This document shows positions 1,742 through 22,070 of a stretch of 22,902 nucleotides of DNA, piece after piece (within the stretch, counting starts at the first letter, position 1; each line of letters starts with the position of its first letter). The notes below the pieces were generated by a model, which ran no database searches, had not been told where the DNA came from, and saw nothing but the letters and a program-made list of their open reading frames with translations. Source of the DNA: Ochromonadaceae sp. CCMP2298 (taxonomy: Eukaryota > Sar > Synurophyceae > Ochromonadales > Ochromonadaceae); assembly GCA_026770595.1 (NCBI GenBank), contig MU633811.1:1-22902 (forward strand), read 5' to 3'. The position numbers and the translations under genes are program-made.

Positions 1742-4700
1742 ATGGGGAACTCCGTGCTGAGCAAGAAGGCGCAGGGCTCGCCTCCGCCGCTGCTGGACGA
1801 GACCCAAATATTCGCCCTATGTAAGTGTCTAAGTGCCCCACCCCAGCTGTTGCTTACAGCAGTGCAAACTGTTTCTAATCATCTCCTCTCTCCACGCCAC
1901 GCATACAGGGACCATCAACGACCTGAAGGAGCTGCTGAAGCGCTTCCGCAATCAGATCCACGGGTTCGCCATCGTGGAGGCGCAGTTCGAGTCGATCATG
2001 GCCTTCAAGCCCAACCTCGCTGACCACGTGCATCTAGAACTTCTCTTCGAAATTCTAGACAACGACCACGACGGGCGCATCGACGGCCTCGAGTTGCTGG
2101 GCGGCTTGACGCTGGTGTGCCAGGCCACCTTTGAAGAGAAAGCTCGCTTCGCTTTTGAGCTGTTCGACTTCAACCTTAACTCCACCATGAGCAAGAAGGA
2201 GCTCATCATGATGATGATGAGCTGCGTGTGCGGTATGAACCTGTTGACGGGGGGCTCTGAGGCTCTGGAGCCTGAGATGGAGGTGTACGAGGCTCTGGCA
2301 GACGACGCAGTCATCCGTGCAGATAAGAACTCGGACGGACAGGTATCCTACGAAGAGTTCCTGTACTGGGGCCGCTCCTCTCGAGACCTCATGGCCGCCC
2401 TAGAGGCTATTCATAAGATGTCCAGCGATGCGAAGATGGATGTGAATCCGGTTGACTCGGCATCCGAGACGGATGACGACTACCTGAGCGAATCGGACAC
2501 GGGCTTTCGTGCAAAGGTTCGCGCGCAGGAGGGGGTTATCGTGAAAGCTGTGCGGTCTTCGGCGGACAACAACGATCAATTGCTGGTACTCAGGCACGGC
2601 GACGAGCAGCCCGCGGTGGCTCCGTGGCTGGGGCAGGTGTTCGAGCCCACCAACTTCAGGAAGAAGAAAGACTCCGCTCACGGTCCCGACACCAACCTAG
2701 AATTGAGCTGGGCTTTTGGATATTCAGCCGAAGGGGCGCGCAACAATGTGCGCTACATCGGGGGCGTGGGTGTGGACTACGCAGACCGGCTGATTGTCTA
2801 CTACACCGCCGCACTGGGGGTGGTCTACTGCCCCAAGACGCGGCAGCAGTCCTTCTACATGGGCCACTCAGACGCCATCACATGCATCGCACTACACCCA
2901 GGGAACCAGATCGTCGCCACGGGGGACGTGCGCTCTAACATCCACATATGGAATATGGACGTGACGGGCAAGGTGACGGCGCTGAGCGTGATGAAGGGCA
3001 TCGTGAGGGAGGGGGTGATGCACCTGCTCTTCTCTCCCAATGGAGATCGCATCGCATCTGTGGGCAGGGACAACGACCACACGGTGTGCTTCCACTGCGT
3101 CAACACTGAGGAAATCATATCCTCCACGCAGGGGCTGCAGGTATGTAAACGTGTTAACCCCCTCTTTGTATGTGTATTCTCCCCCGATGTCTGTGCATAT
3201 ATGTATTAACCCCCTATTTCCTCATTTATGTATTAATCCCCCATTTCTTTACAGCACCCAAACACCGTCTACGACATTGCCTACAACGAGACCGGTACAG
3301 AGCTCGTGCTCGTGGGCAAGCAGCAGATAAAGTTCTGCTACGGGACAGACACACTCAAGAGGGCGGTGGAGACGTACATGGGCGAGGTGGGCAGCATGGG
3401 CAAGCTGCAGACCTTCTTCTGCGTTACCTACTTCCGAGAAGACTGCATCGTGGGCTGCGCCTCAGGGGAGCTGTACCGCTTCCGGGACACGATTTGCATA
3501 GAGGTCATCCAGGCGCATGGCATCCGAGAGCCCGTGCTGTGCCTGTTCACAAACAGGGACGGGACTATGATATCGGGGGGGAAGGACTGCCTCATCAAGA
3601 CGTGGGACTACACCCTACACCCCGTAGGCGAGCCCATCGACATATCAGAAGATGTAGATGGGGACGGCAAGGCGGACAACGGGTCGCTGGACTGCACCAT
3701 CATCTCCCTCCAGCAGTGGGACTCAAAGCTACTCCTCTCCACCCGCGGAGGAGACATCTTCGAAGCAGACGTCCCCAACAACCCCGGCGACCCCCACACC
3801 CTCTCACGCATCGCCTGGGGGCACGCCAAGGGCGAACTATGGGGCCTGGCGGTGCACCCCCTCCGGGACGAGTTTGCTACCTGCGGGGACGACAAGACCC
3901 TCCGTATCTGGAGTGTGCGCTCCCATGAGCAACTGCACGTACGAGTGATGCCAGACCGATCCCGCAGCCTGGCCTACAGCCCCTCCGGAGAGGTGCTCTG
4001 CCTCGGCATGCTGGACGGCTCCATGGCTTTGATGGAGCCGCAGCACCCCCAGCTGCGCGTGTACTCCACCTGGCAGCACGCAGAACTCATCATCACTGAC
4101 ATAAAGTTCTCCCCAGACGGACAGCTCATCGCGGCCGGGTCTGGAGACAGCAACATCTACCTGTACAAGTCAGAAGACAAAAAGAACTTCTTCAGACAGG
4201 GGGTGTGCAGGGGGCACGGGGGATGCATCACGCACCTCGACTTCTCCTGCAACAGCCTCTACATCCAGTCCAACGGAGCGGACAGCAACCTGCTCTTCTG
4301 GGACGTGGAGGGGAACCAGGTCAAGAACTCGGCCAATCTCAGGGACGTTACGTGGGCCACGAATACCTGCAAGCTGGCCTGGCCGGTGCAGGGGATCTGG
4401 TCCAGCGGCGGAGACTACACTCATGTGAACTCTCTGCAAGCGCTGCCCGACATAGGGGACATCGTGACTGGGGACGACCATTTCAAAGTGCGCCTATACA
4501 AGTACCCCGCGCTGGAGACAGGCGCACTGCACCAGGCATACGTCGGACACGCCTCCCACGTCTCCTGTGTGCGCTTCACGGCCTCCCGCAGGTACGTCGT
4601 ATCCACCGGTGGAGCCGACCGCACGATTCTCTTGTGGAGCCACCAGATCGAGCTGGACGAGAGCGACGTGGAGGACCTCTACTCCTCCTCCGCCTCCTCC

Positions 4701-7700
4701 TCCAACGATGAGTTCGATCTGGGCGTGGAGACTAGGCATGAGATCGCGGATGTAGGATTGCGCAGCCTGGAGCTGGAGGCGGTCAATATGGGATGGTCGG
4801 CGCAGGAGCTGAAGGAGTATGTGCTGCACAAGAAGGGGCAGAGCAGGTTCTTGGATACTGTGCATGATAATGGGGGGGGCAAGAGCCCCGGGTCGGTGAT
4901 GCCCTGGAAGAGCTACATCGTGCAGCCGAGTGCCTACCAGGACGCACCTGGGGCTACGGATGTGGATCTGAACTTGAAGTGGGTGCACGGACATCGCTCC
5001 TACGACTGCCGCAACAACGTGCTATACAGTGCATCGGGCTCCATCGTATACAACGCCGCATCGCTAGCGGTGGTGTACAACAAGGGCGCGGGCAAGCAGC
5101 AGTTCCTCCAAGGCGCACATATCGACGAGGTCGTGGGTATCGCCGCACACCCCGCAGGGCAGATATTCGCCACAGGGGAGGCCGGCAGCCAGCCCTCTAT
5201 CATCGTGTGGAACTCGAAGGACATGCAGGTGCAGAGCCGCATCCAGCGCGCGCACGAGCGGGGCGTGCCTTTGCTGGCCTTCAACAGCCGCGGCAATGTG
5301 CTTGCCTCAATAGGGCTTGACGCTGACTCCTCTCTGTGCCTGCATGAGTGGCACAAGGGCGTGGAGATCATCCGCACTCCTACAGACAAGGGCAAGATTC
5401 TATGCATGTGCTTCCTCGTAAACGACCTTGTGGTCGACCCGAACGTGTTCAACGAGGACGGGGCAAGCACCAGGGACGTGGTGGTGACAGCAGGCGAGAG
5501 GCATCTGAAGTTCTGGTGGACGCAGGGGCAGAACGTGCAGTCCCAGAGGGCTTTGTGGGGGCGCCACAGGGCTGAGAAGAAGAGCACTATCATGTGCGTG
5601 GCATCGGCGAACAGAGACGTGTGTGTGTCTGGATCCAGCACGGGTCGAATGATGATCTGGAAGTCCTTCCGGGTAAGCCTCTCACTTCCACTCCCACTTC
5701 TATAACTTACATATATTATTACTGTATGATCTCATGACGATCGATATTATATTCTTAACCTCCCCATGTCCAACCTCTGCCCCTTCTTCTTACTCCTCCC
5801 AGGCAGTGTGCGATGTCCGCACCACCCTGGAGTCGCACAACTCCCCCGAGGATCTGCACGTCGACCCCCTAGACCCCGCCTCAGACCACACGCTGGTACC
5901 CTTCGGCCAGTACCCGCACTCCTCCGCAGTGCAGTGCATCTGGGCAGTGCCGGGTGTGATAGACGTCAAAGGGGACATCTACGAGTGCCTGGAGGGGTAC
6001 CAGGCCTCTGCTCGCTATCTGACAGGGGACAACCAGGGGCAGGTGGCGATCTGGCGAATGGTGGAGACAGTGCAGGGCAACCTGCAGCTCGTACTGATGA
6101 AGTCGTTCAACGTATCGCAGCTCAACCCCCCGCCCCTAGGCGCCTCTGTCAGATCCGTCTGCATGCGGGACGGCATCCTGCTGCTGGGCCTCAAGTCCAG
6201 CGAGATCTTCGAGGTGTCAGAGGCCGCATTCCCCTTCGCCATTCCCAAGCGCACGCTGGGTATGATGGAAGGGGGCATAGGGGGCATAAGGGGCGTAGGT
6301 GCGGGTGCGGGTGCGGAGATTTCCCTCAGTGGCCCCCTCAGTGTGAAGGCCCCCGTACCTGCGCAGCGACTGATCATCGGCCACTCCACGGGCGAGGTGT
6401 GGGGCCTCTCCGTGCACCCCTTCCTGCCCCTGTTCATCACCAGTGGGGACGACTGCACCCTCAAGTGCTGGTCCCTGGCCACACACAAGCTCATCTCATA
6501 CATAGTGCTGCCGGATAAATGCCGCGCCATCTGCATAGAGCCCGTAGACGCTGCCTGCTTCGCCCTCGCCCTCAACAGCGGCATCATCTGGGTCCTATCC
6601 ACTCAATTGCTATTAAACCCTGACGACAAGAAGGCCTTTAAGGGACACGTGGACCCGTCCGTTGATGGCCGCGACGTCTCCTCCCTGCTGTCCGCCAAGC
6701 ACCCCCCCAGGGTGGTGACAGGCCCCGAGCAGTGGATGCAGGTGCTCAAGTACTCCTTCGACGCGTCCCTGCTGGCTGCCGGCTCGCACGACAACAAGAT
6801 CTACCTCTTCGACACGGTGGAGTACAAGCTGCTGCACGTGCTGGGCCGCGACTCCCCTGGGCACTCCTCCTACATAACACACCTCGACTTTGGACTTTTA
6901 TTGAAAAAAGACTTTGTGGAGAAGGACTCGGAGACGGAACTGAAGGACGACCCTCGCAGCACTGGTGTCACGAGGAACTTCACGCTGACCGAGGAGTACG
7001 ACCCCGAGTCACGCATGATCCTGGGCGCCCGCACGGTGACCACCACCCTCAGCGCCATGGTGAGCCTCGTTCCCCAAAAACTCGAGGAGTCCCGCGAGGT
7101 TACAGCGCTCCCGCCGCGGGCCATCCTCGCGGAAGACATTTGCCTGCAGACTGCCAGTGCGTCTTTCGAACTGATGTTCTGGCTCTCGGATGGCACGCGC
7201 ATGCACTCCGCTACCGCCATGAAGGACGCCTGGTGGGCCTCCTTCAGCTGCCCCTTCGGCTGGCCCGTGCAGGGCATATGGCCCCTTGAGGCAGACGGGA
7301 CCGAGATAAACGCAGTGGCTCGCTCACACACGTGGGATAAAGTCCCGGTCCTGGCCACGGGAGATAACTTTGGTCGCGTGAGACTGTACAACTACCCCTG
7401 CATCATGCCGGGCGCTTCTGACAAGTGCTACAAAGGGCACGCGCAGAACATCACTAACCTAGCATTCAGCAACGACGACGCATACTGTATCTCCATCGGC
7501 GGCACTGACAAGTGCGTATTCGTGTGGGAGACAGATATTCAGGACGAGATCCGCGAGCGCGCCGCCTACGCCGCCTCTTCTGTGGGCGGGCAGCTGGACG
7601 CGATCACTGAGAACGAGGAGGTGTTAGAGGTAGAGTCGGACGTGGAGGATGAGGACTACAATTTATTCAAGGCCAGCCCCAGGGGGGGGGACGAGATGGG

Positions 7701-9624
7701 CGCGGTGAAGCCCTGGAAGGGTGCAGTCAGAGAGCCCTCTAGCTGGAAAGATAAACAAGACCATCTGGATATGCCCGACGCCTCGCTGGAGTTGAAGTTC
7801 GTGTACGGGTACAGGGGCTGGGACTGCCGCAACAACTTGTCGTTCGCTGACAGCCGCTTCGAGGTGGTGTACCACATAGCAGGCGTGGGGGTGGTATTCA
7901 ACACACAGCAGAACAAGCAGCTGCACAACACGGAGCACGATGACGACATCCTGTGCCTAGACGTGCATCCAGAGGGGCACACCGTGGCCACTGGAGAGAT
8001 AGGCAAGTTCCCCAAGATCGTGCTGTGGGACGCCAACACAGGTGTAACAATACGAGTGATACTGTTCCACAAGCGTGGTGTCGCCAATATAGCGTTTAGC
8101 GCAAACGGCGACCTTTTGGTGAGCACCGGCATGGACGACGACCGCACCGTGGTGGTGCACAACACACGCACGGGCTCGGTGCTCGGCAAGGGCAAGGCGG
8201 GCAGAGGCATAGAGGTGTACACGCTCTCCGTGGGGGGGAACGAGCTGTTCGTAACGGGGGGCAAGGGACACATCAAATTCTGGGAACTGCCCCTAGCCAA
8301 CTCACCCGGTGGCGAGCTGTCCTCCAAGAGCGGCATCTACAACGTGAAGGCCGTCAAGGCGCGCACAGTGGTGTCGAGTGCGTTCCTGGGCGCAGATGCG
8401 GTGACGGGTATGTCAGACGGACACATCCTCCTCTGGAAGGACCGATCGTCCACCAAATACCGAAAAGCCCACCAAGGCCCCGTGAATGCCATGTACAGCA
8501 TCAGCAACACGTCACCCGGTATCGACACCAGAGAATTAGGTCCGCGCGTGATCACCGGCGGGAAGGACGGGTTTGTGCATATATGGTGCATGCAGCTGAG
8601 GAAGATGTGGTCCCTGAACCTGGCAGAGACGCTGCCCAAGTCCGTGTGTCCGCAGATACAGGCCATCGCGACCAAGGAGAACAGACTGCTGATCGGCACC
8701 AAGGCGAGTGAGATATACGAGGTGAGTCTGCTCTCCCACGCAGAGGTGTTCAAACTAGTGGAGGGGCACTTCGACACACGGGGGGAGGTGTGGGGGGTCG
8801 CAGCGCACCCGCGGATGCAGCGCTTCGTGACCTGTGGAGACGACATGACCGTAAGATTGTGGGAGGCCAAGGGCATGAAGCAGCTAGAGATAGTGCACAT
8901 GGGGGCTAAAGTACGCGCCGTGTGCATATACCCCGACGGTTCTCAGATCGCCGTGGCCACATATGAGGGGCGGGTGCACATACTATCGGCGGATTTGCAC
9001 ACGGAGGTGGCACAGGTGACCGTCTCTTCGCACTGGATCGAGACCATGGCCTACTCCCCTGACGGCAAGTTGCTCGCGGTTGGCTCGCACGACTCCACCA
9101 TATACTTGCTCGAGACGCGTGCGTACTCATGCAAGTCCAAGTGCCGCGGCCACCACTCCTACATATCAGGTCTGGATTTCTCCGCAGACAGCACCGTGCT
9201 ACAGTCCATCTCCGGGGACTACGAATTGCTTTTCTGGAACGCCACCACAGGCCGCCAGATAACCTCTCCTACCGAGGTGCGTGACGTGAAGTGGGCCACA
9301 TGCACTTGCAAGCTGGGCTGGCCGGTGCAAGGTGTGTGGTCCAATGCAGACGGCACAGACATCAACTCGGTCGACCGCTCTCCTGACGGCACCTACCTCG
9401 TCACTGGGGACGACTGCTCTCTCGTGAAGCTGTTCAAGTTCCCCTGCACCAGGCCGGACAGTGTCTTCAAGGAGTACAAGGGGCACGCACAGCATGTTAT
9501 GAAGGTGCGGTTCAGCTTCGACGGGCGGTACGTCTTCTCAGTGGGGGGTCTGGACAAGGCCATTCTGCAGTTCGAGGTGAAGAAGGACTCCTCCAGTAGG
9601 AAGAACAAGATGATCAAGGCGTGA
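1742..9624 (+). CDS. EF-hand, triple HELP/WD40 EMAP-like (EML5/6-type) protein, four exons
   Basis: The joined exons are 1742-1820, 1909-3140, 3255-5672 and 5803-9624, giving 2,516 residues and a TGA stop. The introns are GT-AG, with phases 1, 0 and 0. The N terminus carries EF-hand loops at residues 77-88 (canonical, D.D.DG.ID..E), 113-124 (degenerate, no Gly at position 6) and 165-176 (canonical). Three EML modules follow, beginning near residues 290, 1008 and 1903. Each opens with a HELP motif (RNNV, DCRNNV or DCRNNL) and runs into WD repeats, with a conserved WPVQG near 813, 1730 and 2416. Acidic linkers containing a Pro-Trp motif (265, 987 and 1880) precede each module. Family members bind microtubules through HELP-propeller units; animal EML5 and EML6 also have three. 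Calcium control of microtubule or axoneme binding is inferred. Module 2 carries an extra insertion of about 80 residues (about 1607-1688) and a Gly-rich loop. It is convergent with the DUF3638 gene. Confidence 0.93.
1821..1908 (+). other. intron 1 of EML gene (88 bp, phase 1)
   Basis: It begins GTAAGT and ends CATACAG, with a CTAAT branch-point-like site about 30 nt upstream of the acceptor (1875-1879) and a pyrimidine-rich tract. Splicing joins a 26-codon first exon plus one base to the EF-hand exon, making a Trp codon at the junction and a continuous frame. Without it, the ATG at 1742 leads into a frame that ends at 2023 and does not encode the EF-hands. Confidence 0.88.
3141..3254 (+). other. 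intron 2 of EML gene (114 bp, phase 0), built of ~27-bp repeats
   Basis: It begins GTATGT and ends TTTACAG. Removing it joins two WD40 segments in the same frame; the unspliced frame stops at 3207-3209. Almost the whole intron consists of degenerate copies of a unit like TATGTATTAACCCCCTATTT, starting near 3142, 3169, 3200 and 3227. The last two copies are the best preserved and repeat with a 27-bp period. The unit resembles motifs in the spacer at about 340-415. Confidence 0.88.
5673..5802 (+). other. intron 3 of EML gene (130 bp, phase 0)
   Basis: It begins GTAAGC and ends CTCCCAG after a long pyrimidine-rich tract. Splicing joins a WD blade that ends in a typical Ile-Trp-Lys strand to the rest of the second EML module. 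Both flanking exons stay open through the junction, and the sequence in between is AT-rich and unlike the exons. Confidence 0.85.
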
Positions 9625-9926
9625 GCGGATCCTATGAGTCTATGTTCCTCGTATGAGTTATACAGGCAGACAATTATTCCTCCTCCTGGTTAGACAATAG
9701 GTGGTTATGCCTCTAATTAAGCATACTCGAAAAAGTCCATTTTGTTATGGGGAGTTATACCTAACCATAGATACAGGAAATGCTACAACTGTACAAATAT
9801 CTCTGTGAACAACGCCTAAGCAGAGCACAGCCCAGTGCCGCCCATACTTATGTGGTTGCAGCCTCAGTCCCACACATACAATACAGGAGTACATACATGT
9901 AGAGCGATGGCGTAGCGCAGTGCTAC
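9625..9926. other. convergent 3' spacer between EML and DUF3638 genes
   Basis: This 302-bp gap lies between the stop codons of two converging genes, so it must hold both 3' UTRs and both cleavage sites. There is no AATAAA on either strand. TGTA-rich stretches (for example TACATACATGTA at 9890-9901) lie close to the minus-strand stop. No small ORF or RNA gene was recognised. Confidence 0.5.
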
Positions 9927-12314
9927 TCAAGCCTCGCCAATGTCAGCAGCGCAGATGGCCTCCAGGTCGCTGCGGGACACCATGTGCTGCAGTCCGCGCA
10001 TGGCAGGCAGGTGCAAAGCCGCCTGCCGCGCCTCGGGTGAGGACAGCAGCTCCCTGACAGCCTGCTTGCGAGACTCGGTGCCGAACACGGTCTCTCCTGC
10101 CAGCAGCTGCAGGCCCGCCAGTAAGAGCGGCGCCACAGGCTCCGGACGAGAAGGGCGAGTAAAAAACAGATGAGGGCGAGGGTTATTAGTGCCAGGGAGG
10201 GTCAGGGGCGTCCCCACCAGCAGATGCGGCTGCGCCACCCACCCCTCGTCTGCGGCGTGACGTAGGTAGGCCAGGTCCACCAGACAGGGGCCGCCGGGTG
10301 CGTGTGCCCACTGCAGCCCCAGCAGCTGGTCAGTCTCCCACTCGGAGAGCAGCAGGCACTCGCCAGAGTTGAACAGCAGGACCGAGCCCACGGGGCGGGA
10401 GTGCTCGGAGTGATCTGCCAGCGCCTGCCCCTCTCGGCCCGTCACCGCCAGCATGAAGTTGCGCGTGGCGGAGATGCCGCACAGGCCCCAGTTGATGGCT
10501 GCCAGAGAGGGCAGGTGCGCCCTGATGGCCTCGGCCAGAGGCAAAACGCCCGCATTGGCTGGCAGGTCTGTTGGGCCCACAGCATGCAGCACCGCGCTGA
10601 AGTCCCACTGCTGCGGCTCCTTGGGCGCCTGCCTCGGGAACTGCCGCTCCACCTCTCGCTCCAACTCCCGCTCTGTTTCCAGCTCGCGCTCGCACTCCTC
10701 GTCCAAGCCGCTGCACACGAGCGTCACGTCGGAGCCATATTTTCTTGCGTGGCTGCCGATACTGACCTTTCGCGCCTCCCCCGCTGTGTCCAGCCGCACA
10801 CCCAGCTTTGCGATGCGCGCCTGATCCCGCTCCTGCCGCTTGAGCACCACGGCCTCTGCTGTCTCCTCCGCCACCGGGCCTGCGTAGAGGTCCTCAGCGC
10901 GCAGGTTCTCTTCCAGCAGGCGCGTGGAAGGATCCCTCGTGGTGGTGAAGTGGCTGCCCTGTCCGCCCCACTCAGGCAGGCCGGCAGTAATCGCCTCTAC
11001 GGTGGTGTGGATCGTCCAGGTAAGAACGTGTAGGGGCGTGAGCTCCTCGGCCGCGACACGGTTATTGGCGCGGATCTTGGCCACGAGCTCTGCGGGCACT
11101 GCGAGCACCAGTTTCTGTCCGTACATGAGCTTACGCATCCTGCCCGCCGCCTGCATCAATTTGTCCTTGCGCATGCCGGTGCCTATCGTGAGCAGCGCGG
11201 TGGCCTCTGGGTGCAGCTTCAGGTCCGCGCCTCTGCAGCGGCTCTCGTCAAAGAACACAAAAGCGTCCTTCTCACGGATGGGCGAGCTGCCCAGCGGCCA
11301 GCTGCGGCCGTGCCTACTGGCGACGGTCCATGCATTGGCAGCGGTGCTGAAGTAGGCCACTCCCTGGAAGCGCGACGAGGTAGGCAGCAGATTCAGCACC
11401 CGCTGCGCCACCTGCTCATTGCTCAGGCCTGCCATCGTGGCCCCCGCGTCGATCAAAGCGGCCGCCTCTGCCTCCACCACCGCCAGCTGCAGCACCGCCT
11501 CGCTGAGGGGCGAGCCGTCCAGGCACACGACGCGCTGGCTACGCAGGCCCACGAGGTCCAGCATCTTGCCGTCCGTGCCCGCGAGCTCCTGGCAGTTTGG
11601 CTGCTGCTGGCTCACCGGAAAGGGCAGCAGCAGCGCGTTGTCCTTCGTGCCGGAGAAGCCCACGACACGCTTTTGCGCGTTGTCCGCCAGGTGGAAGGCG
11701 GTGCTGACCAGGCGCTGCGAGAATTGCATCGACTCCCTAGGCAGCACACAAGTAGCCAGCCAGAAGTCCACTGCAGCCATGTTGTGTGCGTAGACCGAGT
11801 GCAGCAGGGTCAGCTGCAGCTCGTTGGAGAGATCCAATTTGCGCACGTCGTCTAGCACGCCCAGCTGCTCGGCAGTCAGCGAGGGGTGGGCGGAACGCAG
11901 CCACAGCGCATACTCCTCCCCCTGCGCGATGGGCCCCAGTGACAGCAAAGCGCGCAATGCCTCTCTGATCTCGTCCTTCTTGAGGCCGTCGTGGTAGTAG
12001 GACAGCTGTGTCAGCAGGATCAGCGAGTCGGGCTGTGCGTACTCTGCGCGCTCAGAGGGTGTGTCGCTGGCACGGTAGGGGACCGCTACGCGCCTGCTCT
12101 TGCCGCGGCGCTCGTCCATGCCGTAGTCTACTCTGTGCCTGCGGCACAGGCAGTGCACCAGTAAGCTGTATGCTAGCATCCCGCGAAGCGCCAGTAGCTG
12201 GTCTAGCTGGCGCCCCTGCCTGATGAGATGTGCGCCGGATTGCCGCTCCAGCCACTCCAGGCTCTTGTTCTTCTCGGCCACGAAGGAAACAATAGTGGCG
12301 CGCAAAGGGTGGTC
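9927..12314 (-). CDS. C-terminal part: DUF3645 and second ATPase-like lobe
   Basis: This is an open frame of 795 codons plus stop, continuing after the TGA with no credible ATG start. Codons about 2204-2270 of the whole frame are the DUF3645 signature: LRGMLAYSLLVHCL, then HRVDYG, VPYRASDTPSERAE and LTQLSYYHDGL. Further on, FFDESRCRGADLK (near 11220-11260) and GTGMRKDKLMQAAGRMRKL (near 11130-11195) resemble motifs V and VI of helicase-type second lobes (QxxGRxxR). The last 250 or so residues contain a charged Glu/Arg-rich stretch and a C-terminal region I do not recognise. It ends at TGA 9927-9929 (coding strand), 302 bp from the converging EML stop. Confidence 0.82.
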   Translation of the reverse strand, partial: DHPLRATIVSFVAEKNKSLEWLERQSGAHLIRQGRQLDQLLALRGMLAYSLLVHCLCRRHRVDYGMDERRGKSRRVAVPYRASDTPSERAEYAQPDSLILLTQLSYYHDGLKKDEIREALRALLSLGPIAQGEEYALWLRSAHPSLTAEQLGVLDDVRKLDLSNELQLTLLHSVYAHNMAAVDFWLATCVLPRESMQFSQRLVSTAFHLADNAQKRVVGFSGTKDNALLLPFPVSQQQPNCQELAGTDGKMLDLVGLRSQRVVCLDGSPLSEAVLQLAVVEAEAAALIDAGATMAGLSNEQVAQRVLNLLPTSSRFQGVAYFSTAANAWTVASRHGRSWPLGSSPIREKDAFVFFDESRCRGADLKLHPEATALLTIGTGMRKDKLMQAAGRMRKLMYGQKLVLAVPAELVAKIRANNRVAAEELTPLHVLTWTIHTTVEAITAGLPEWGGQGSHFTTTRDPSTRLLEENLRAEDLYAGPVAEETAEAVVLKRQERDQARIAKLGVRLDTAGEARKVSIGSHARKYGSDVTLVCSGLDEECERELETERELEREVERQFPRQAPKEPQQWDFSAVLHAVGPTDLPANAGVLPLAEAIRAHLPSLAAINWGLCGISATRNFMLAVTGREGQALADHSEHSRPVGSVLLFNSGECLLLSEWETDQLLGLQWAHAPGGPCLVDLAYLRHAADEGWVAQPHLLVGTPLTLPGTNNPRPHLFFTRPSRPEPVAPLLLAGLQLLAGETVFGTESRKQAVRELLSSPEARQAALHLPAMRGLQHMVSRSDLEAICAADIGEA

Positions 12315-15300
12315 TCACAGCCAGCGCATGTGGTACGGCGGATCGTCCATGACCCCCTCAATCAACAGCCGCAGCAGTTCCGGTGTCACGGCGTCCAGCC
12401 ACGGCCCCTGCAGCAGGCGCGTGTCATCGAAGGCGCCAGCCCCACGCTCTGCTGCCGACAGCCTCCTGGCGACATCTGGATCCTGCAAGATAGCGGCGAT
12501 CTTCGTGCTTGTCTGCAGCTGCCTCAGCAGCGCCTGCGCCCCCACCCAGCGCTCCTTCCCAGCAGGCAGCTCGCAGCAGCTTCCCACTGCGTATATGAGC
12601 TGATACTTGTGGGAAAGCATCTCGTCGCTCTCGTCCAGCAGGTCCAGGTAGGGCAACTCGTCAATTACTTTCCTCAGTTGCGTACACATCGCCTCTTGTC
12701 CGTCGGCCATGGCGAGCTCGTCCCGCTTCAGCAGCAGCGAGAGGCGGTGCTCAGGAGCTATGCACAACGCGCCCAGCGAGGCCTTGCAGTGCAGCAGGCT
12801 CTCATGCATGCGCTGCACACTCTGCGGGTCAAGGCGCACGTCTCGGTGGAAGGGCATCAGGTACATCCTGCGGTTCATGAGGCTAGCAGTTAGTTGGCAG
12901 TGCAGGAAGTGGTAAGCCTCGCCCAGCAGCGGGGACAGGAAGTGCAGACGCAGGAGCAGGTCGGGCTGCGCCATGGAGAGCAGCAGCATGGGCAGGATGA
13001 CGCGGGTCTTGCCCTCGCCCATGTTCAGCTGAGTGATGGCGCCAGGGTGCTCGGTGAGGAAGTGCGCCACCCGGTACTGCACTTTCCGTATCTGCAGCTG
13101 CTGCTCCACCTCGAACACCAGCCATTGCGGGTGCTGCTGCACGTCCCACTCTCGCCCCACCTCCTGCAGCTCGCGCTCCAACTCCTCCACGCTGCCCACG
13201 CTAGCGAGGTCGCAGGCCCTGCGCAGCTTGTCCTCCAGCACGCAGGCCTGCAGCCACGTCAGCGTGCCGGCGTTCAGACGCAGCACCGCGGACCCCGACA
13301 GAAAGGGGTTGAAGCGCCGCAACTCCTTGGGCGCCCACGCTGCACGCGCAACATCGCGGGCAGTGGCGACGGGCTCCAGATTGGCTGCGCGGCGCATGTT
13401 GAAGGCAGAGGCGTGCCAGCCCGCAGCAGCCGGTACGTGGGAGACGTTCCGCAGTAGCTCTGCCTCCAGCTTTCCTCGTACGTCGCGAATGCGGATCAGG
13501 TGTTGTCTGAGCAGGCCTTTTGTGTGCTTCACGCTGTGGACCAGTCTCACTGCGCCGGTGTTCTGGTAGGCCGCCCAGCTCTGCTGCAGCTGCTCCACCA
13601 AGCTGCGCCCCAGCTGTGAGTCCTGGAAGTCCGCCACGTTTAGCGGCAGCGCTGCAGGCTTTGCTCTGGGCTGCTGACACACCATCAGCCGTAGCGCGTC
13701 CTCGATCGACGCCGCCACCTCGCTGCACTTCATCGCAGGCACGTCTGTGGAGGAAAGGTCCAGGTAGCCAGCCTCGGGGAACACGCGGCCCTGGGGGCGG
13801 GCGGTCACGGGCAGGCCAAGCACGCGCGTCTCCTCGTCGGCGCTTAGGGCAGCTCGCGGGTTGAGCTGTCCCCGCTGCTTACGGTGCGAGTAGTCACTAG
13901 CGGCGTCGATGTCCAGCTGCATTGGCGGCCTGCGCAGGTCCTCCCTCCTGTCGGTATGCAAGAAGCTGAGTTCCCGCGCACTCTGGTCCAGCTCCTGGCA
14001 GAGCAGCGCCAGCGCAGGCGTGTGCATGCCGAACTGCACGATGGACTGCAGATGGCCGCTCTCCCTTCTGCTGAGGGGCTGGTTCACCCAACTCTGCCGC
14101 AGCAGCTCCACCGCAGCCTCCCCGCCTGTGCGCCGCTGGCTGGGCTCTGGCACCTCTGCGCCTGTGGCGGCGTGCAGGGCGGCCAGCTGCAGTCTAGCCT
14201 CTACCGCCAGGGGCCCGGCCGCAGCCTCCAGGGTGCCGAAGCGGCCGTGCTCATCGTAGGCGTGCAGACTGCGGTGCGCGTCACAGGAGCTGGGCCCCTG
14301 CACAGACACTCTGTGCGCCTGGCGCTCGACAGTCCCCTCAGGCACTATCACCTTACGGGCGCTGGCAGCCTCCAGCACGAGGTACTGCTGGAAGCCCCTG
14401 AGCTGGTCGGGCAGCAGCTGGTGCACACCTAACTGGAAGCCTCGGTAGTTCATGCACTGCAGCTGGCCCTCGACAAGCTGGAAGGCCAGGTCGTACCGCG
14501 GGAGTTCGAACAGAAAGGCACCACTCGTGGATTCGCGCAGCGTGTGCACCAGCCCTGCATCCGTCTCGAGCTTCTCCAGCACGCGCAGCAGCTGCGACTC
14601 CCCCTGCCTGGTCTGGATCACGAGCTGGTCAAACGAATTGGACCCCGCAGCATTCCCAGGTTGAAACGAACGCAGCTTCGTCCAGTGCACCTGTCTCTGA
14701 TTCTCACCCACGCAGAAGCACAGCATCGGGAGCGAGCCGTTGCCAACCGCGTCAGAGGTGTTGTAGTTGTTCAAGGCCGGCTCCAGGAAGAAGGACACGC
14801 CTCGCTCTAGATAGAGCTGCCCGCGCAGCACCACTGTGTCTGTCTCCCTGCAGAGCCAGTGGCTGTGCATCCTCTGCAGCCGGATGGGCAGGTCGCCGCC
14901 CCAGACCGCCACGCCCCGCCCGGTCCCATCCAGCAGCTCCAGCTTGTGGAGGCTGCTCGGGTCGATCTCCTGCACCACCAGCGCGCCGCTCTCGTCCACG
15001 AAGAAGCTGTACATATGCCCGCCCAAGGGGCGTGCTGTGAGGAGCGAGCCGTCGCTGGAGGCAGTCACCTCGAAATTACGGTCGCTGAAGGTGCGGCGGT
15101 ACAGAGGCATCTGCAGGATGGACTGGGGCAGCCTACTGGGGGGCAGGCCGTTGAACAGCAGCACACCAGTCATCGCGTTGAGGCTGTAGAGGTTGCCGCT
15201 GGAGGACACTGCCTCGTAGCACTCCGTGTCGCCGTCAGCCACCACCCGCCTCCATGTCAGCTCGCTGGGTGTGGCGTCCAACACGAGATTCACCGCCGCA

Positions 15301-15590
15301 GTCAGCAGGTGCGTGTGCTGGTCGAGCACGTCGAGCACCTCGCTCAGACGGCGCGCCATCACTGCGAGAGTGACTGCCTTGAGCGCCTGCACCTCTGCGT
15401 CGTAGGGCGTGGGGTCCTCAAACAGCCTGTTGTAGTCCGCCAGCAGCACCAGCTGCATTAGCTCCCCCACATCATCCACAGAGAGCTCCCCCGCGCAGTG
15501 GTAGACGATCGCGTATCCGTAGAAGAGGCAACGGCGCGCACGCAGCATCGGCACCTGCTCCGACGTCGCCCCCCCGATCTCTGCTGCGAC
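12315..15590 (-). CDS. middle part: DUF3638 region with Walker-A-like and DExD-like motifs
   Basis: This is an open frame of 1,091 codons following directly on the TAA, without an ATG near its beginning; the first residues resemble family sequence soon after the break (RRCLFYGYAIVYHCAGELS). Near its C-terminal end lies the DUF3638 core. QLNMGEGKTRVILPML contains a P-loop, MGEGKT, encoded at 13005-13022 (codons 1926-1931 of the whole frame). A DESDEML box follows about 125 residues later (encoded near 12616-12637). The pair resembles motifs I and II of helicase/SecA-type ATPases. The piece ends at TGA 12315-12317, right after PPYHMRWL, within what appears to be continuous family sequence. Codon use and GC content match the flanking parts. 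Confidence 0.82.
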   Translation of the reverse strand, partial: VAAEIGGATSEQVPMLRARRCLFYGYAIVYHCAGELSVDDVGELMQLVLLADYNRLFEDPTPYDAEVQALKAVTLAVMARRLSEVLDVLDQHTHLLTAAVNLVLDATPSELTWRRVVADGDTECYEAVSSSGNLYSLNAMTGVLLFNGLPPSRLPQSILQMPLYRRTFSDRNFEVTASSDGSLLTARPLGGHMYSFFVDESGALVVQEIDPSSLHKLELLDGTGRGVAVWGGDLPIRLQRMHSHWLCRETDTVVLRGQLYLERGVSFFLEPALNNYNTSDAVGNGSLPMLCFCVGENQRQVHWTKLRSFQPGNAAGSNSFDQLVIQTRQGESQLLRVLEKLETDAGLVHTLRESTSGAFLFELPRYDLAFQLVEGQLQCMNYRGFQLGVHQLLPDQLRGFQQYLVLEAASARKVIVPEGTVERQAHRVSVQGPSSCDAHRSLHAYDEHGRFGTLEAAAGPLAVEARLQLAALHAATGAEVPEPSQRRTGGEAAVELLRQSWVNQPLSRRESGHLQSIVQFGMHTPALALLCQELDQSARELSFLHTDRREDLRRPPMQLDIDAASDYSHRKQRGQLNPRAALSADEETRVLGLPVTARPQGRVFPEAGYLDLSSTDVPAMKCSEVAASIEDALRLMVCQQPRAKPAALPLNVADFQDSQLGRSLVEQLQQSWAAYQNTGAVRLVHSVKHTKGLLRQHLIRIRDVRGKLEAELLRNVSHVPAAAGWHASAFNMRRAANLEPVATARDVARAAWAPKELRRFNPFLSGSAVLRLNAGTLTWLQACVLEDKLRRACDLASVGSVEELERELQEVGREWDVQQHPQWLVFEVEQQLQIRKVQYRVAHFLTEHPGAITQLNMGEGKTRVILPMLLLSMAQPDLLLRLHFLSPLLGEAYHFLHCQLTASLMNRRMYLMPFHRDVRLDPQSVQRMHESLLHCKASLGALCIAPEHRLSLLLKRDELAMADGQEAMCTQLRKVIDELPYLDLLDESDEMLSHKYQLIYAVGSCCELPAGKERWVGAQALLRQLQTSTKIAAILQDPDVARRLSAAERGAGAFDDTRLLQGPWLDAVTPELLRLLIEGVMDDPPYHMRWL

Positions 15591-18500
15591 TTAGTCACCC
15601 CACGCCCGCGATATCTCCGCAAAGTGCCGAGCAGTCTCGCATGTGGCGGCATCCCACTGCGAGGCCACGGCTGCTATCTCCCCCAGCACCAGCACTGCCC
15701 CGTGCTCCCTGGGCTTGTGGCGTAGCTCATCCACGAGCTCGTCCAGCTCCCTTCTCAGGGCCGCCCAGCCGCCGTCCTCTGCCATGTCGGTGCGCCAGAG
15801 CTGCCGGGGCATGTCGTCGTCTGAGAGCTGGCCTACGTGGAACAGCGTCTGTTGCAGCAACAGGCGCACCGACGGGTGGTCCAGGGGCAGGCTGCGGTCC
15901 CGCAAAGCCACGCAGAGTTTGCGCATCTGCTGCAGGGGGTAGGCGCGCAGGGCACCGAAGGCGAGGAAGTGCTGCTTGCTGGGCAGCCAGGCGGGCATGG
16001 TATCCAGCACTGCCTCAGGCCAGTTGCCGCGCGCAGGGGCCGACTCGCAACCGTGCTGCTCTAGAGCCCACTGCAGGGCGTGGTCTGCCTCGGGCAGCGG
16101 CTCTGTGAATTTATGGACTGCCATAGCTGCCGGGAGCGTCTTGAAGGGATCGAAGAAGGGACTATACAGGCCGTCGCCCAAGCGTGTGTCGAGCGAGAAA
16201 CCCCCGCCATCCCAGAACAGCGCTGGCTGCAGCGTGTCGGGGTGCCAGATGCCCTGCGTGGGGTCAAAGTACTTGCGCACATTCTTGGGATACCAGTCCC
16301 CGTCGACCTCCACCTCCACCCCCATAGACCCGACCAGCACCTTGGTGCCCTTGGAGGTGTGTGACCTCGCAGTGCTGCCCGACATGTAGTAGCTCTGCCA
16401 CCAGGTTTTGGCTCCGTCAACAGCGATCAGATCGTTGACGTCCACAAGTTGCTCGTCCGCAGCGTCCAGAGCGGGCAGAGTAATGTTGTCTCCGGGTAGC
16501 AGCATCTGCTGGGCAGTGAAGCTCAGACGAGACAGCACGCAATATTCCTCGGGCATGAAGAGCAGGAACAGCACAGGCATGGCTGCGGAGGCCTCAAAGG
16601 GCAGTGGCTGCTTGACGGGACTGGGCGGACTCTCTGCTGCGCGGATCACTTGCGTGGTCCAGCTGACGGTGTTTTCCCGTATGTCGAGCTCAGACTTTGC
16701 GCTAGAGTAGAGGATGTCCTCGGCTTTAGACGTTGGATTCTTCCACCCATTCCGCGGTTTGTTCAGCCTATTAAGCTTGGCCTGGGCTGAGTCTCTATCT
16801 CTGGTTTCCTCTTGCAGCTTTGCGTCCAGCTGGCGCAGGTGCTGTTGCTTCGCCAGCACATCGCGCCAGTGCTGCGCTTGCCTCTCCACTGCAGCTGCCT
16901 GCTCGACACGCCAGGTCTCCTGTATCGAAGGGTCAGCATAGGCGTAGCGCCGGGCCAGGTCAATGGTGGCATCATCGGGCCGCAGAGAGAACACTGGCCT
17001 AGAGACCTGTCTGTTCACGCGGCGTAGGTACGCCGCCACCTGGAGGGCGCTGTCCACCTCGCTTCGCTCCGAGAGCACGAGGAGCTGCAGGTCCTCCCAC
17101 TGCGGGGCCGCCCTGTACTGCCCCAACAGCGGGTTGCTGCTCCTCGTGGCGTGGTGTGCCATGCAGAAGGCCACCCACACCACCAGCAGCTCTCTGCTTT
17201 TGACCTCCACTGACAGCAGCGCAGCGCCAGTTTTTGACTGCTGCAGCTGCGCCACGGCCAGGCGATACGTCTCCACCACCCCCTCCATATGGCGTAGGCA
17301 AGAGCCACTTAGGTAGCTTGTCGCGTTCAGGTTGTCGGTCTGCCTGAAGGCAAAGGACTCCACTGTGCTCACCACCAGCAGCATCGCCGCCTCATCCTGC
17401 CCCCCACTCTGCCCAGGCTGCAGACGGCGGAGGGCGAGCCACTTGGAGAGCTGGGGCCACGTGTTGAGCACGGGAGGCGTGGGCAGCCACCCAAGATTGT
17501 CCAATGCCCTCTCACGCGACGCCTCCAGTGACCCCGACTGCCACGCTGGTAGCCTGGGTACGGGGAGTGACAGCTCCGGCGGTCTGACGTGCACGTCCTC
17601 TATGTGTACGGGCGGCAGCTCGAAGGACTGCGCCACCAGAGAGGCGCGATGCTCCGCGGCGCACTCCAGCTCATACCTGACCAGTACGCAGCGAGCCTCG
17701 AAGCCACCCATATCGTGCCCCTCGTCTGCCAAAGCCGCGCCCTCTGACACCGCCGCCTTGAGCATCTGCATGGCTGCATCGCTGCCTTGAGCGCTGTCCA
17801 CCGGTAGAGCACGCTCCGTGCTCCACAGCTGCAACTCAGCCATCGCAACCCGGTACAGCTGGTGCTTCTCTCGAGATTCCAGCAGCACCTGCATTACTGC
17901 GCGCACAAGGGGCCAGGTTGTGCTCCGCGCGTGTCCGCCAGTGTGCAAGCCCACGTCGGTGAAGCCCCCCCGCGGCGCCGTCTGGCCCTCATCCAGACCT
18001 GCAAGCGCGTCCAGCAGCACGGCCTGCACCATCGCAGGCGTCTTCTGGTTACCCTGCGGGTTGCGGTTGGCGCTGCGCTTGTCGCCCGTGCGAGACGCTG
18101 CCTTCCCCAGTAGATCGTAAGTCTTGAACAAGAAATCCCCATACTCGGCCTCGCTCACGCAGCCCACGTGGAGGGGCGTCGCGTCGGCACCCGCGAGAGA
18201 GCAGTGCGTGCGAGAGTGCTCACCGCAGTGCAAGTAGAACTTCCACTCATCCGGACACACGAGCATCAACACCACCTCTCCCACGCGCGGCATGGTCGCG
18301 AGCAGCGCGCAACCGTACTCTCCGAACCACGTTATGTGGGGTACGCCCTTGAAGGCGGGCTGCGACTGTTCCAGGGCAGAGGCAGCCCACGCAAGCACTG
18401 CGAGGTCTGCCTGCTCGGGCTGCCACATCGCTGCTTCGGCGTCAGAGAGCGAGTGCAGGAAGGAGGTCACTAGCGCTATCTCCCGGTTGGGGGCTGTCTG

Positions 18501-18797
18501 GTCACTCGGTGGAGGGAGGTGGCTGAGCAGGGGAAACAGCGCCCCCGTATTGAGGGACTGGTCTTGCTGACCCTGCGCGACCACGACGGAAAGAATGGCA
18601 TCTGGCTCCACGAGATCGGCCAGTTTGGCACTGCCATCGGACAAGACGGACCCGCCATGCACCAAGTGGATTGACGTAGATGGAGGTGCAGGCGAGAGCC
18701 GTGCCGCCGCCAGGGACCTAACTGATTCCACCGTGTAGTCGGGGAGAACGCGCAGGTTCTGGAGATGGCCCTTAGGCAGTCGTAGTTTGATACTCAT
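15591..18797 (-). CDS. N-terminal part: ubiquitin-like domain plus DUF3638-family N region
   Basis: It has 1,068 codons. The start at 18797 is preferred over the upstream ATG at 18839 because MSIKLRLPKG lines up with the first strand of a ubiquitin fold, and because a probable 5'UTR intron (18812-18902) would remove the upstream ATG. Residues 1 to about 75 form the ubiquitin-like domain, without a C-terminal Gly-Gly, so it is a fixed domain rather than a processed modifier. A charged coiled coil follows at about 622-684, just after an RYAYADPSIQE-type motif. Next come a hydrophobic MPVLFLLFMPEE segment and SRLSFTAQQMLL (about 740-766), which I recognise from this protein family. The piece ends at TAA 15591-15593, in the middle of conserved-looking sequence. 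The role is unknown; the family is thought to be linked to ubiquitin. Confidence 0.8.
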   Translation of the reverse strand: MSIKLRLPKGHLQNLRVLPDYTVESVRSLAAARLSPAPPSTSIHLVHGGSVLSDGSAKLADLVEPDAILSVVVAQGQQDQSLNTGALFPLLSHLPPPSDQTAPNREIALVTSFLHSLSDAEAAMWQPEQADLAVLAWAASALEQSQPAFKGVPHITWFGEYGCALLATMPRVGEVVLMLVCPDEWKFYLHCGEHSRTHCSLAGADATPLHVGCVSEAEYGDFLFKTYDLLGKAASRTGDKRSANRNPQGNQKTPAMVQAVLLDALAGLDEGQTAPRGGFTDVGLHTGGHARSTTWPLVRAVMQVLLESREKHQLYRVAMAELQLWSTERALPVDSAQGSDAAMQMLKAAVSEGAALADEGHDMGGFEARCVLVRYELECAAEHRASLVAQSFELPPVHIEDVHVRPPELSLPVPRLPAWQSGSLEASRERALDNLGWLPTPPVLNTWPQLSKWLALRRLQPGQSGGQDEAAMLLVVSTVESFAFRQTDNLNATSYLSGSCLRHMEGVVETYRLAVAQLQQSKTGAALLSVEVKSRELLVVWVAFCMAHHATRSSNPLLGQYRAAPQWEDLQLLVLSERSEVDSALQVAAYLRRVNRQVSRPVFSLRPDDATIDLARRYAYADPSIQETWRVEQAAAVERQAQHWRDVLAKQQHLRQLDAKLQEETRDRDSAQAKLNRLNKPRNGWKNPTSKAEDILYSSAKSELDIRENTVSWTTQVIRAAESPPSPVKQPLPFEASAAMPVLFLLFMPEEYCVLSRLSFTAQQMLLPGDNITLPALDAADEQLVDVNDLIAVDGAKTWWQSYYMSGSTARSHTSKGTKVLVGSMGVEVEVDGDWYPKNVRKYFDPTQGIWHPDTLQPALFWDGGGFSLDTRLGDGLYSPFFDPFKTLPAAMAVHKFTEPLPEADHALQWALEQHGCESAPARGNWPEAVLDTMPAWLPSKQHFLAFGALRAYPLQQMRKLCVALRDRSLPLDHPSVRLLLQQTLFHVGQLSDDDMPRQLWRTDMAEDGGWAALRRELDELVDELRHKPREHGAVLVLGEIAAVASQWDAATCETARHFAEISRAWGD

Positions 18798-19903: not shown

Positions 19904-20998
19904 CTATAACCCATCAGGCATCTCGACATCGCACGCCATAGGATCGTGTAGGGGATTATTGGGAATAGTGGGAATAGCTGTAATGAGGGTATTGTGGGTG
20001 GAGGTAGTTAGGTCAGAGCCTGCCCCGCTCTCTCCCACGTCTACACTCGCCCAGTATGTCTCGTCATCGTCAAAATCCTGGTACTCCTGCTCAGCCAGGT
20101 ATGTGGACGCCACAGAATCCCTATCCCTGCTATCCTCTGACCCCACCGACCCCGCTGCCGACTCGATTCCCCTGTTGATTCCCTTACTGAGGTGGTGCAT
20201 GCCCAAAAGCCTAACCCAGTTATTGCGCGCCTCTCTGGAGTTTCCGAAGAAAACGCACGCTGTAAGCGCCCCCTGCATGATGGATATGCAGTTTATGGAC
20301 ACCACGGTGGTGCTGTTGGCCGCCCTGTCCGGGTCGATGTTGGTCTGCAGGGCGTTGGGGATCCAGCAAACCATGATGATAACGGGATACAAAAAGAGCA
20401 TATTCATGGCATTGCGCACGGCCGGGGTGGTGCCCGTGTTCGCCCTAACTTTGAGATAGACCAGCACCCCCCAGTAGAACATCAGCATCCCCGTGCCGAA
20501 AATGACCGCATCGAAGGTAAGAATCTGCCAAAAAATGGCCATATTTTCGCTCCTGCCGCCCCCCCTTGGCTGGATCCAGCAGAAGTCGTCGTCCTCGGGG
20601 GCCTGTCCGTAGTCCGAAGTGGTCAAGGGCAGGAGCGTCAGGAAGAGCGGGATGGTCCAGCAGATCAGATGCATCTGTAATTGGGACATGGCGATCTTGC
20701 CATGCGTGACGAGGGAATATATGAGGAAGGAGAGCATGCAGGTCCAGAACCAGCTGGCGGGGTAGAAGAACTGCTGCACCAGTCCTTGCACGGAGCACAT
20801 CACTCCGTCCCCGGGTGAGCCGAAGAAGACTGTGCAGTTCGCGATCGTGTCACAGAACGAGATAAAGAAGATCGTGCGCATGAAGACGCTGCGCCAGAGG
20901 CTTCTGAAAAGAAGGAAGCTGAGGAGAACTACGAAGGAGGCTGACGTACTCACTATAGTGATGTACAGCTCCGCATCCTTATTATGCCCAGCGGACAT
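19904..20998 (-). CDS. cAMP-receptor-like (class E type) seven-transmembrane GPCR
   Basis: It is a single-exon frame of 364 residues with a TAG stop. The ATG at 20998 is the start: the open frame extends upstream, but the only earlier initiator-like codon there is TTG. Hydrophobic helices lie at about residues 10-32, 37-60, 68-97, 107-126, 155-187, 197-220 and 234-258, after a very short N terminus as in the Dictyostelium cAMP receptor family. A Cys at the top of helix 3 (about 68) and one in the second extracellular loop (in DDDFCWIQ, about 141) could form the usual disulfide. Helix 6 carries CWIPNALQ, and after helix 7 comes FFGNSREARNNW, both in the style of this family. The roughly 100-residue tail is rich in Ser, Thr, Asp and Glu, suitable for receptor phosphorylation. 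It acts at the plasma membrane or ciliary membrane; the ligand is unknown, and cAMP binding is not implied by the family alone. Confidence 0.87.
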   Translation of the reverse strand: MSAGHNKDAELYITIVSTSASFVVLLSFLLFRSLWRSVFMRTIFFISFCDTIANCTVFFGSPGDGVMCSVQGLVQQFFYPASWFWTCMLSFLIYSLVTHGKIAMSQLQMHLICWTIPLFLTLLPLTTSDYGQAPEDDDFCWIQPRGGGRSENMAIFWQILTFDAVIFGTGMLMFYWGVLVYLKVRANTGTTPAVRNAMNMLFLYPVIIMVCWIPNALQTNIDPDRAANSTTVVSINCISIMQGALTACVFFGNSREARNNWVRLLGMHHLSKGINRGIESAAGSVGSEDSRDRDSVASTYLAEQEYQDFDDDETYWASVDVGESGAGSDLTTSTHNTLITAIPTIPNNPLHDPMACDVEMPDGL

Positions 20999-21196
20999 GA
21001 ATACTGCCAGGTGCGCAACCGACCTCGGTAACACGGGACAGGCGTCACACAACGCTTTGCTCGACTGGAGCGATGATGACCTTCGTGATCTGTTGAATGT
21101 GGGATGCCAGAAAGCGTCACATCAGAAAAAAGATCTCGCTCTCGGTTTTTTTTCCTTTTGAAATCCAGTTGGGGCAAAAAGGCGCCAACGAAAAAA
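20999..21196. promoter_or_regulatory. upstream region of receptor gene, left flank of MITE
   Basis: These 198 bp lie between the receptor ATG and the MITE's left end. They contain the remainder of the receptor's upstream open frame and a T-rich stretch at 21147-21160. On the minus strand, a CTGAT-rich segment ending CATTCAACAG (near 21091-21100) resembles a splice acceptor, so a 5'UTR intron is possible. GCGCCAAC at 21182-21189 resembles the MITE end GTCGCCAAC. No TATA box is clear. Confidence 0.35.
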
Positions 21197-21198
21197 TA

Positions 21199-21337
21199 AG
21201 TCGCCAACATTTTGACAGTGGGAAACGGCCCAATTAGCGCAAACCGTAATTCCAGTTATAGATCAATATCACATCTGCATCGTAATTATACGCATTTATA
21301 ACAATGTTTTTGTCATGTAATATATATATTGCACATC
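21199..21337 (+). repeat. left terminal inverted repeat of the MITE
   Basis: It is 139 bp and begins AGTCGCCAAC. Compared with the right copy it differs at three scattered single bases over the first 105 or so positions, and at five bases in a short variable patch (GTTTTTGTCATGTAAT here). It then matches again through a TATATATATTGCACATC end. The position of the inner boundary is set by where the match ends. Confidence 0.9.
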
Positions 21338-21631
21338 TATAAGACATGCCATTTTGGACAAAGTGATCGTCGTAAATAATGCACATAGATAGTAGAAGGC
21401 AAAATAATAAGGTGCAAAATAATGTCTGGGCTGAGCACTAGGACTGCTGCGCTGAGAGCCAAGATGTCACTGAGGATGGTTCCTTGCAGGATCTGCGCGC
21501 TCAGTGCGAATGGAGATTCTTACGAATCTCGTGCTTTGGATGGCTCAGTGCCGCCTCTGTAGTCGTTTTGTTGATTAAAATGCCAATTTTAATGGTACAC
21601 TATTTTGCAGTTGTCGTCTGGCAGAATAATT

Positions 21632-21763
21632 CGTCAAATGACAGATTTGTTTGTCATATGACAGGTTTGTTTGTCCAATGACAGATTTGTTTGACAGTGT
21701 ATCGAATCGTTTGTCAAATGACAAAAATGTTTGTCACATGACAAAATTGTTTGTCACATGACA
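21632..21763. repeat. 20-bp-period array of TGTCA-NN-TGACA dyads
   Basis: Dyad cores start every 20 bp at 21632, 21652, 21672, 21712, 21732 and 21752; the slot at 21692 is degenerate. The cores read CGTCAAATGACA, TGTCATATGACA (a perfect palindrome), TGTCCAATGACA, TGTCAAATGACA, TGTCACATGACA and TGTCACATGACA, separated by GATTTGTT-like spacers. The outer TGTCA/TGACA bases are kept while the two central bases vary, as expected for sites bound by a dimeric protein. The array is only on the right-hand side of the MITE. Confidence 0.9.
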
Positions 21764-21797
21764 GATGATAATAATAAATAGATGATAATAATAAATA
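21764..21797 (+). repeat. 17-bp tandem pair GATGATAATAATAAATA
   Basis: Two identical, head-to-tail 17-bp AT-rich units lie between the dyad array and the right terminal inverted repeat of the MITE. They probably arose by slippage. Confidence 0.85.
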
Positions 21798-21806
21798 TAT
21801 TTTATT

Positions 21807-21945
21807 GATGTGCAATATATATATTACACAACTTAAATATTGTTATAAATGCGTATAATTACGATGCAGATGTGATACTGATCTATAACTAGAATTACGG
21901 TTAGCGCTAATTGGGCCGTTTCCCACTGTCAAAATGTTGGCGACT
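21807..21945 (-). repeat. right terminal inverted repeat of the MITE
   Basis: It is 139 bp, the reverse complement of 21199-21337 with about 94% identity. It is followed by TA and then AAATCCTGACTTTCAC (21948-21963), a 16-bp sequence also present at 19375-19390. Its outer end is only 37 bp upstream of the ATG at 21984. Confidence 0.9.
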
Positions 21946-22070
21946 TAAAATCCTGACTTTCACGTTTTAACCCTTTCCAAAGAATGGGGGCCATCGTGGT
22001 CCACCGATGGCTGGCGAACTCTACAAGTAACTTACCTTTTCGCGTTGTCTCTACCTCGCGCACAATCGCC

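Follow-up and report, generated by a model that had tools for sequence, protein, structure and literature searches.

Two in-frame stop codons in a DUF3638/DUF3645 gene copy of Ochromonadaceae sp. CCMP2298: probable early loss of a duplicated gene

Introduction

The large eukaryote proteins that carry DUF3638 (PF12340) and DUF3645 (PF12359) are the closest described relatives of the gene reported here, which resembles them in having both domains in order and a length of about 2,950 residues. Proteins of comparable size are found among its relatives in named algae and in metagenomes, and the copy analysed here differs from them by its two internal stops. A 2025 paper still terms the mechanism of the family undefined (PMC12615304). 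A wider comparison is with the SF2 helicases and translocases such as RIG-I, MDA5, SecA, Prp43 and HrpB; unlike these, the protein of this gene has no counterpart in the PDB by sequence search, about 310 residues lie between its two matched parts, and a motif-VI-like pattern is found in just 52 of the 119 relatives listed.

Two further kinds of system bear on the stops themselves. Duplicated genes that have become pseudogenes or null alleles by nonsense mutation share with this locus a long homologous frame, a premature stop at sense positions and a decayed sister copy, whereas the present gene has no frameshift so far and has one of its two stops inside a patch. In human CD177 a stop is reported to have been brought into the gene through conversion by the pseudogene CD177P1 (PMC4882059), and the likeness lies in a stop being delivered with a short tract of a second copy; here, however, the assembly contains no such donor, and a chimera of assembly would explain the tract as well or better.

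The gene, its frame and its two stops

The window, that is the whole stretch of DNA analysed (22,902 nucleotides), makes up the entire contig MU633811.1 (C86) of an assembly of 724 contigs and 11,247,203 bases, which was searched for further copies. Its EML and DUF3638 genes, and the introns of the neighbouring gene, are in our reading marks of a eukaryote. The features of the interrupted gene are as follows.

9927..18797, minus strand: copy of a DUF3638/DUF3645 gene interrupted by two stops, 2,957 codons with the terminal TGA counted, recognised by its reading frame and by relatives of all three pieces
15591..15593, minus strand: internal TAA, codon 1069
12315..12317, minus strand: internal TGA, codon 2161

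Read from 18797 to 9927 the frame contains exactly two internal stops and no frameshift, which bears out the initial annotation of a single frame of about 2,957 codons broken only by this TAA and this TGA. A chance open reading frame is ruled out because a frame of this length shows homology along its course. The same annotation had recognised a DUF3638/DUF3645-type protein flanking each stop, and this holds between the stops, where DUF3638 is matched at E 1.2e-59 (201.8 bits against a Pfam cut-off of 31), and 3' of the TGA, where DUF3645 is matched at E 6.5e-13 (48.2 bits against 25), so that both domains of the family stand above their cut-offs and in the required order. It does not hold in the same form 5' of the TAA, where no Pfam domain was matched, though relatives exist there too: 24 were found, the top one with 98% coverage and 43% identity, and from about residue 445 onward this stretch can also be aligned to contig C364. 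The annotation had seen no ATG close to either restart, which was mistaken for the TAA: the first in-frame ATG comes 15 codons after it (15548-15546). The TGA is followed by one at a distance of 46 codons (12179-12177).

The residues that relatives carry at the two stops were taken from a search with query residues 900-2700 of P0001, which gave 245 relatives, 120 of them listed and aligned. Among those 120, the column of the TAA is acidic in 70 (Glu in 40, Asp in 30) with seven gaps, and the column of the TGA holds Lys or Arg as its commonest kind (58 rows), Ser in 18 and Cys in two, with three gaps; in P0137, a nearer relative, the residue at the TGA column is basic as well. This comparison had been proposed as a check, and among the relatives listed it gives E/D as the commonest kind at the first site and K/R at the second. 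Judged from these alignments both stops stand where ordinary sense residues belong, as is expected of premature stops in a pseudogene, with the proviso that the rows are predicted proteins and that such databases would hide stop codons.

A patch of differences around the TAA

One of the relatives listed is nearly the same protein: P0002, a metagenome protein from JGI of 2,156 aa on a contig of 9,306 bases, which represents a cluster with 5 member sequences. Of its 2,156 aligned residues 2,143 are identical to the window protein. The 13 differences, to which the TAA belongs, all fall within residues 1050-1099; at the position of the TAA P0002 has a sense residue.

15501..15650, minus strand: patch, residues 1050-1099, holding every one of the 13 differences from P0002, including the TAA
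16308..16319, minus strand: tandem VEVE of 12 nt, residues 827-830, missing from P0002 and the sole further difference from it

When 13 differences were placed at random, they fell within 50 residues in none of 200,000 trials. At the protein level, then, this is a sharply bounded tract of differences in otherwise identical sequence. Because all 13 differences fall in these residues, the simplest account is that the TAA belongs to a tract of about 150 nt from a third, more diverged copy.

Comparison with the sister copy on contig C9, described below, suggests which of the two records has the foreign tract. Within the patch C9 matches P0002 at 43/50 residues and the window at 36/50, whilst in the flanking 50 residues it is equally close to both (46/50 on the left and 47/50 on the right). 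Of the 13 sites that distinguish the window from P0002, C9 has the P0002 residue at nine, the window residue at two and neither of them at two. Leaving out the stop, the 12 differences that could be scored against the family fit better with P0002 at eight and with the window at four, and residue 1099 is Cys in 93 of the 119 family rows (among the relatives listed) but not in the window. We infer that it is the window that carries the foreign patch. The converse, a correct window and a foreign patch in P0002, is less likely, given that C9 matches P0002 more closely in the patch and that the P0002 patch is no copy of C9.

At the level of bases the patch differs from C9 at 32/150 positions and its flanks at 13/150 and 14/150, but the whole gene is a patchwork in this respect, and 31% of 349 overlapping 150-nt windows diverge from C9 at least as much as the patch does, so that divergence from C9 alone does not mark it out. 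Its dN/dS against C9 is 0.265 (0.106-0.638), with no sign of decay. A search of the assembly with the patch DNA matched only C86 itself and C9 (at 85%) and yielded no donor with a matching tract, and what is claimed here is a patch, not conversion from an identified donor. Either ectopic gene conversion or a chimera of assembly would have brought in the tract. A tract of about 150 nt resembles a short sequencing read in length, and for that reason, together with the fragmentary state of the assembly, we lean slightly to a chimera. The stop-bearing patch may not be real.

The TGA and the predicted motor

P0002 ends with the residue directly before the TGA of the window. It would be a coincidence for the contig to end at exactly this codon, and thus a stop codon probably stands at the same place in the gene of P0002. 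Among the relatives listed a protein end at the TGA recurs only in this near-identical protein. Most simply, the TGA is an ordinary nonsense change.

What such a change would remove can be judged from a structural model of a relative.

12504..13154, minus strand: DUF3638, predicted motor lobe 1, with GEGKT from 13019 and LDESDE from 12638 (model of a relative)
9930..12314, minus strand: stretch after the TGA with DUF3645, predicted motor lobe 2 and the C-terminal part, with QAAGRMR from 11153 (model of a relative)

We take GEGKT to be a Walker-A-like and LDESDE a Walker-B-like motif. The model suggests that DUF3638 and DUF3645 are the paired lobes of a single SF2-type motor, with the TGA lying between them. 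Since termination at the TGA parts the two predicted lobes, it should inactivate the product. The predicted two-lobe motor for this family is a by-product of the analysis which may be of wider use.

Other copies and the traces of selection

A search of the assembly with the middle piece of the gene found a copy on C9 (83% identity, broken frame) and one on C364 (38%, open for 2,585 aa to the end of the contig), and a Pfam search of the assembly added a further copy on C678 with an open frame of 3,068 aa. Most of the window gene can be aligned to the C9 copy, with 82-88% of bases identical, and this copy contains five in-frame stops and 13 gaps within the gene that are not divisible by three. 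Two adjoining gaps sum to an in-frame length, leaving about 11 frame-breaking events, and one further pair (one base gained and one lost 140 bases on) may compensate each other. This sister copy, with five stops and some 11 frame-breaking gaps, is plainly decayed and dead, and it shows that the DUF3638/DUF3645 family of this genome is losing copies.

C9 also gives a measure for the argument made earlier that random decay would normally bring frameshifts as well as stops. At its ratio of 11 gaps to 5 stops the chance of finding no frame-breaking gap is ~0.10 beside two stops and ~0.31 beside one, so that two stops with an intact frame are unsurprising and the lack of frameshifts is weak evidence for recoding.

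Over the whole comparison of the window with C9, dS is 0.296, dN 0.117 and dN/dS 0.395 (bootstrap 0.349-0.441). By region dN/dS is 0.474 (0.385-0.584) 5' of the patch, 0.36 (0.289-0.44) from the patch to the TGA and 0.354 (0.277-0.437) 3' of the TGA, with no excess of dN in this last stretch, and because the ratio is not raised there the stretch has not long been free of constraint. Most of the change between the window and C9 predates any loss. Strongly conserved family columns are kept by the window at 84/88 before the patch, 1/2 in the patch, 192/197 in the middle and 142/151 after the TGA; for C9, counting gap-free columns, the corresponding figures are 79/85, 2/2, 165/178 and 140/151. Where the window and C9 disagree, the better fit to the family is that of the window at 75 sites and that of C9 at 76 before the patch, at 5 and 8 in it, at 78 and 64 in the middle and at 69 and 51 after the TGA; the window's edge over the dead copy is at most a small one. 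The pattern fits recent loss and also, less simply, ongoing translation past the TGA.

In 50-codon blocks of 9927-18797, dS to the C9 copy ranges from 0.08 to 0.79, as if the copies had exchanged tracts repeatedly, with the caution that small blocks are noisy.

Explanations for the two stops

The reading that we favour, and hold to be probable, is that the gene is a young pseudogene or null allele of a duplicated gene, in which the TGA is a nonsense change and the TAA lies in a patch of about 150 nt that arose by conversion or as a chimera. The gene of the window would be one of the few members of a duplicated eukaryotic DUF3638/DUF3645 family, and it would be at an early stage of loss. The TGA would have ended the protein between the predicted lobes of a helicase-type motor and its product would presumably be inactive, while the TAA would not be an isolated mutation here but would have been carried in with the patch of a more diverged copy, through conversion or mis-assembly. 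Several explanations were offered at the outset: recent loss, an allele or an error of sequence, readthrough, RNA editing and cryptic splicing. The evidence favours recent loss for the TGA and an allele, conversion or assembly chimera for the TAA, and speaks against cryptic splicing. There is a caution in this, in that exactly two stops and no frameshift resembled recoding until one near-identical protein placed one stop in a foreign patch and left the other simplest as a nonsense change.

Excision of the stops by tiny or cryptic introns would restore the frame, and the frame-preserving GT-AG segments proposed over the stops do exist, but so many can be written (17 of 200 nt or less hold the TAA and 31 the TGA) that each one carries little weight. 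A local standard for introns is given by the neighbouring gene.

1742..9624, plus strand: EML-type WD40 gene with three inferred introns (1821-1908, 3141-3254 and 5673-5802), its start at 1742 being the first ATG as read

Its introns, inferred from frame and splice signals, are 88, 114 and 130 nt long, start with GTAAG or GTATG and end with CAG. The proposed segments, on the other hand, are matched by sequence in C9 and by coding residues in the family, the alignment is free of gaps over both stops, and the C364 copy is one open frame; at neither stop is there a segment that is missing from the coding sequence of relatives and bounded by splice sites like those of the genome. The chance that introns remove the stops is practically nil, and we put it no higher for selenocysteine at the TGA or a reassigned code. 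Selenocysteine has in its favour that the C364 paralogue has Cys at the place aligned to the TGA, yet Cys occupies that column in only 2/120 family rows listed against K or R in 58/120, the TAA would be left unexplained, no Rfam family reached its gathering score anywhere in the window, and no SECIS appeared in 9000-12400 among Rfam matches up to E 10. Against a reassigned code stand the frames of C364 (2,585 aa) and of an HSP70 on C117 (706 aa), both without internal stops; another HSP70 copy, on C386, has one TAG and matches in four separate pieces, which are probably exons. All three ideas, selenocysteine, reassignment and tiny introns, were rejected on these grounds.

Functional readthrough, in which the TGA and perhaps the TAA would part of the time be read as sense to give a full-length motor, could account for 2,957 codons without a frameshift, for conserved residues mostly kept past the TGA (142/151), for a dN/dS beyond the TGA that is not above that before it, and for P0002 stopping at the same position. 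Recent loss accounts for the same facts, however, and the TAA is replaced by a sense residue in P0002, the bases 3' of both stops do not match the familiar readthrough motifs, and a sense residue is present in all filled rows among the relatives listed (117/117 at the TGA and 113/113 at the TAA), bearing in mind that a database of predicted proteins would hide stops. None of the results specifically favours functional readthrough of the TGA, and we regard it as very unlikely. An error of sequence or assembly at both stops, with the real gene intact, we consider simply unlikely: similar copies within one assembly make such mistakes likely, the assembly is fragmentary at 724 contigs, and the patch around the TAA is sharp-edged and about as long as a short sequencing read, but P0002 from JGI ends exactly at the TGA and would have to be wrong as well, unless both records share the same reads. 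That a stop-containing allele is kept in the population and its TGA-shortened N-terminal product is still in use would agree with P0002, representative of 5 member sequences, ending at the TGA; the cut would nevertheless fall between the predicted motor lobes, the identity of two near-identical records is uninformative on selection, and such an allele seems to us very improbable. As a maintained switch the TGA would give mostly the N-terminal product with lobe 1, with lobe 2 made by occasional readthrough or by re-initiation at the ATG 46 codons on; if true, this would be a giant helicase-type protein made in two forms, but we consider it extremely improbable.

Elsewhere in the window and the assembly

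No exact match to a 16-base 18S end pattern was found across the whole assembly, and a missing 18S end pattern is common in metagenome-derived eukaryote bins. Three features of the window outside the interrupted gene may be recorded. An inverted repeat at 986-1097, with 55-nt arms that are 91% complementary and a spacer of 2 nt, lies within an open frame at 485-1501 on the minus strand and resembles a hairpin chimera or an insertion of the snap-back type. The open frame at 19904-21052 on the minus strand has a weak match to Dicty_CAR, a 7-transmembrane receptor family (E 2.1e-6). Finally, inverted arms of 151 nt at 21197-21947, 93% complementary and with 449 nt between them, enclose short internal repeats around TTTGTCA and form what we take to be a MITE-like element.
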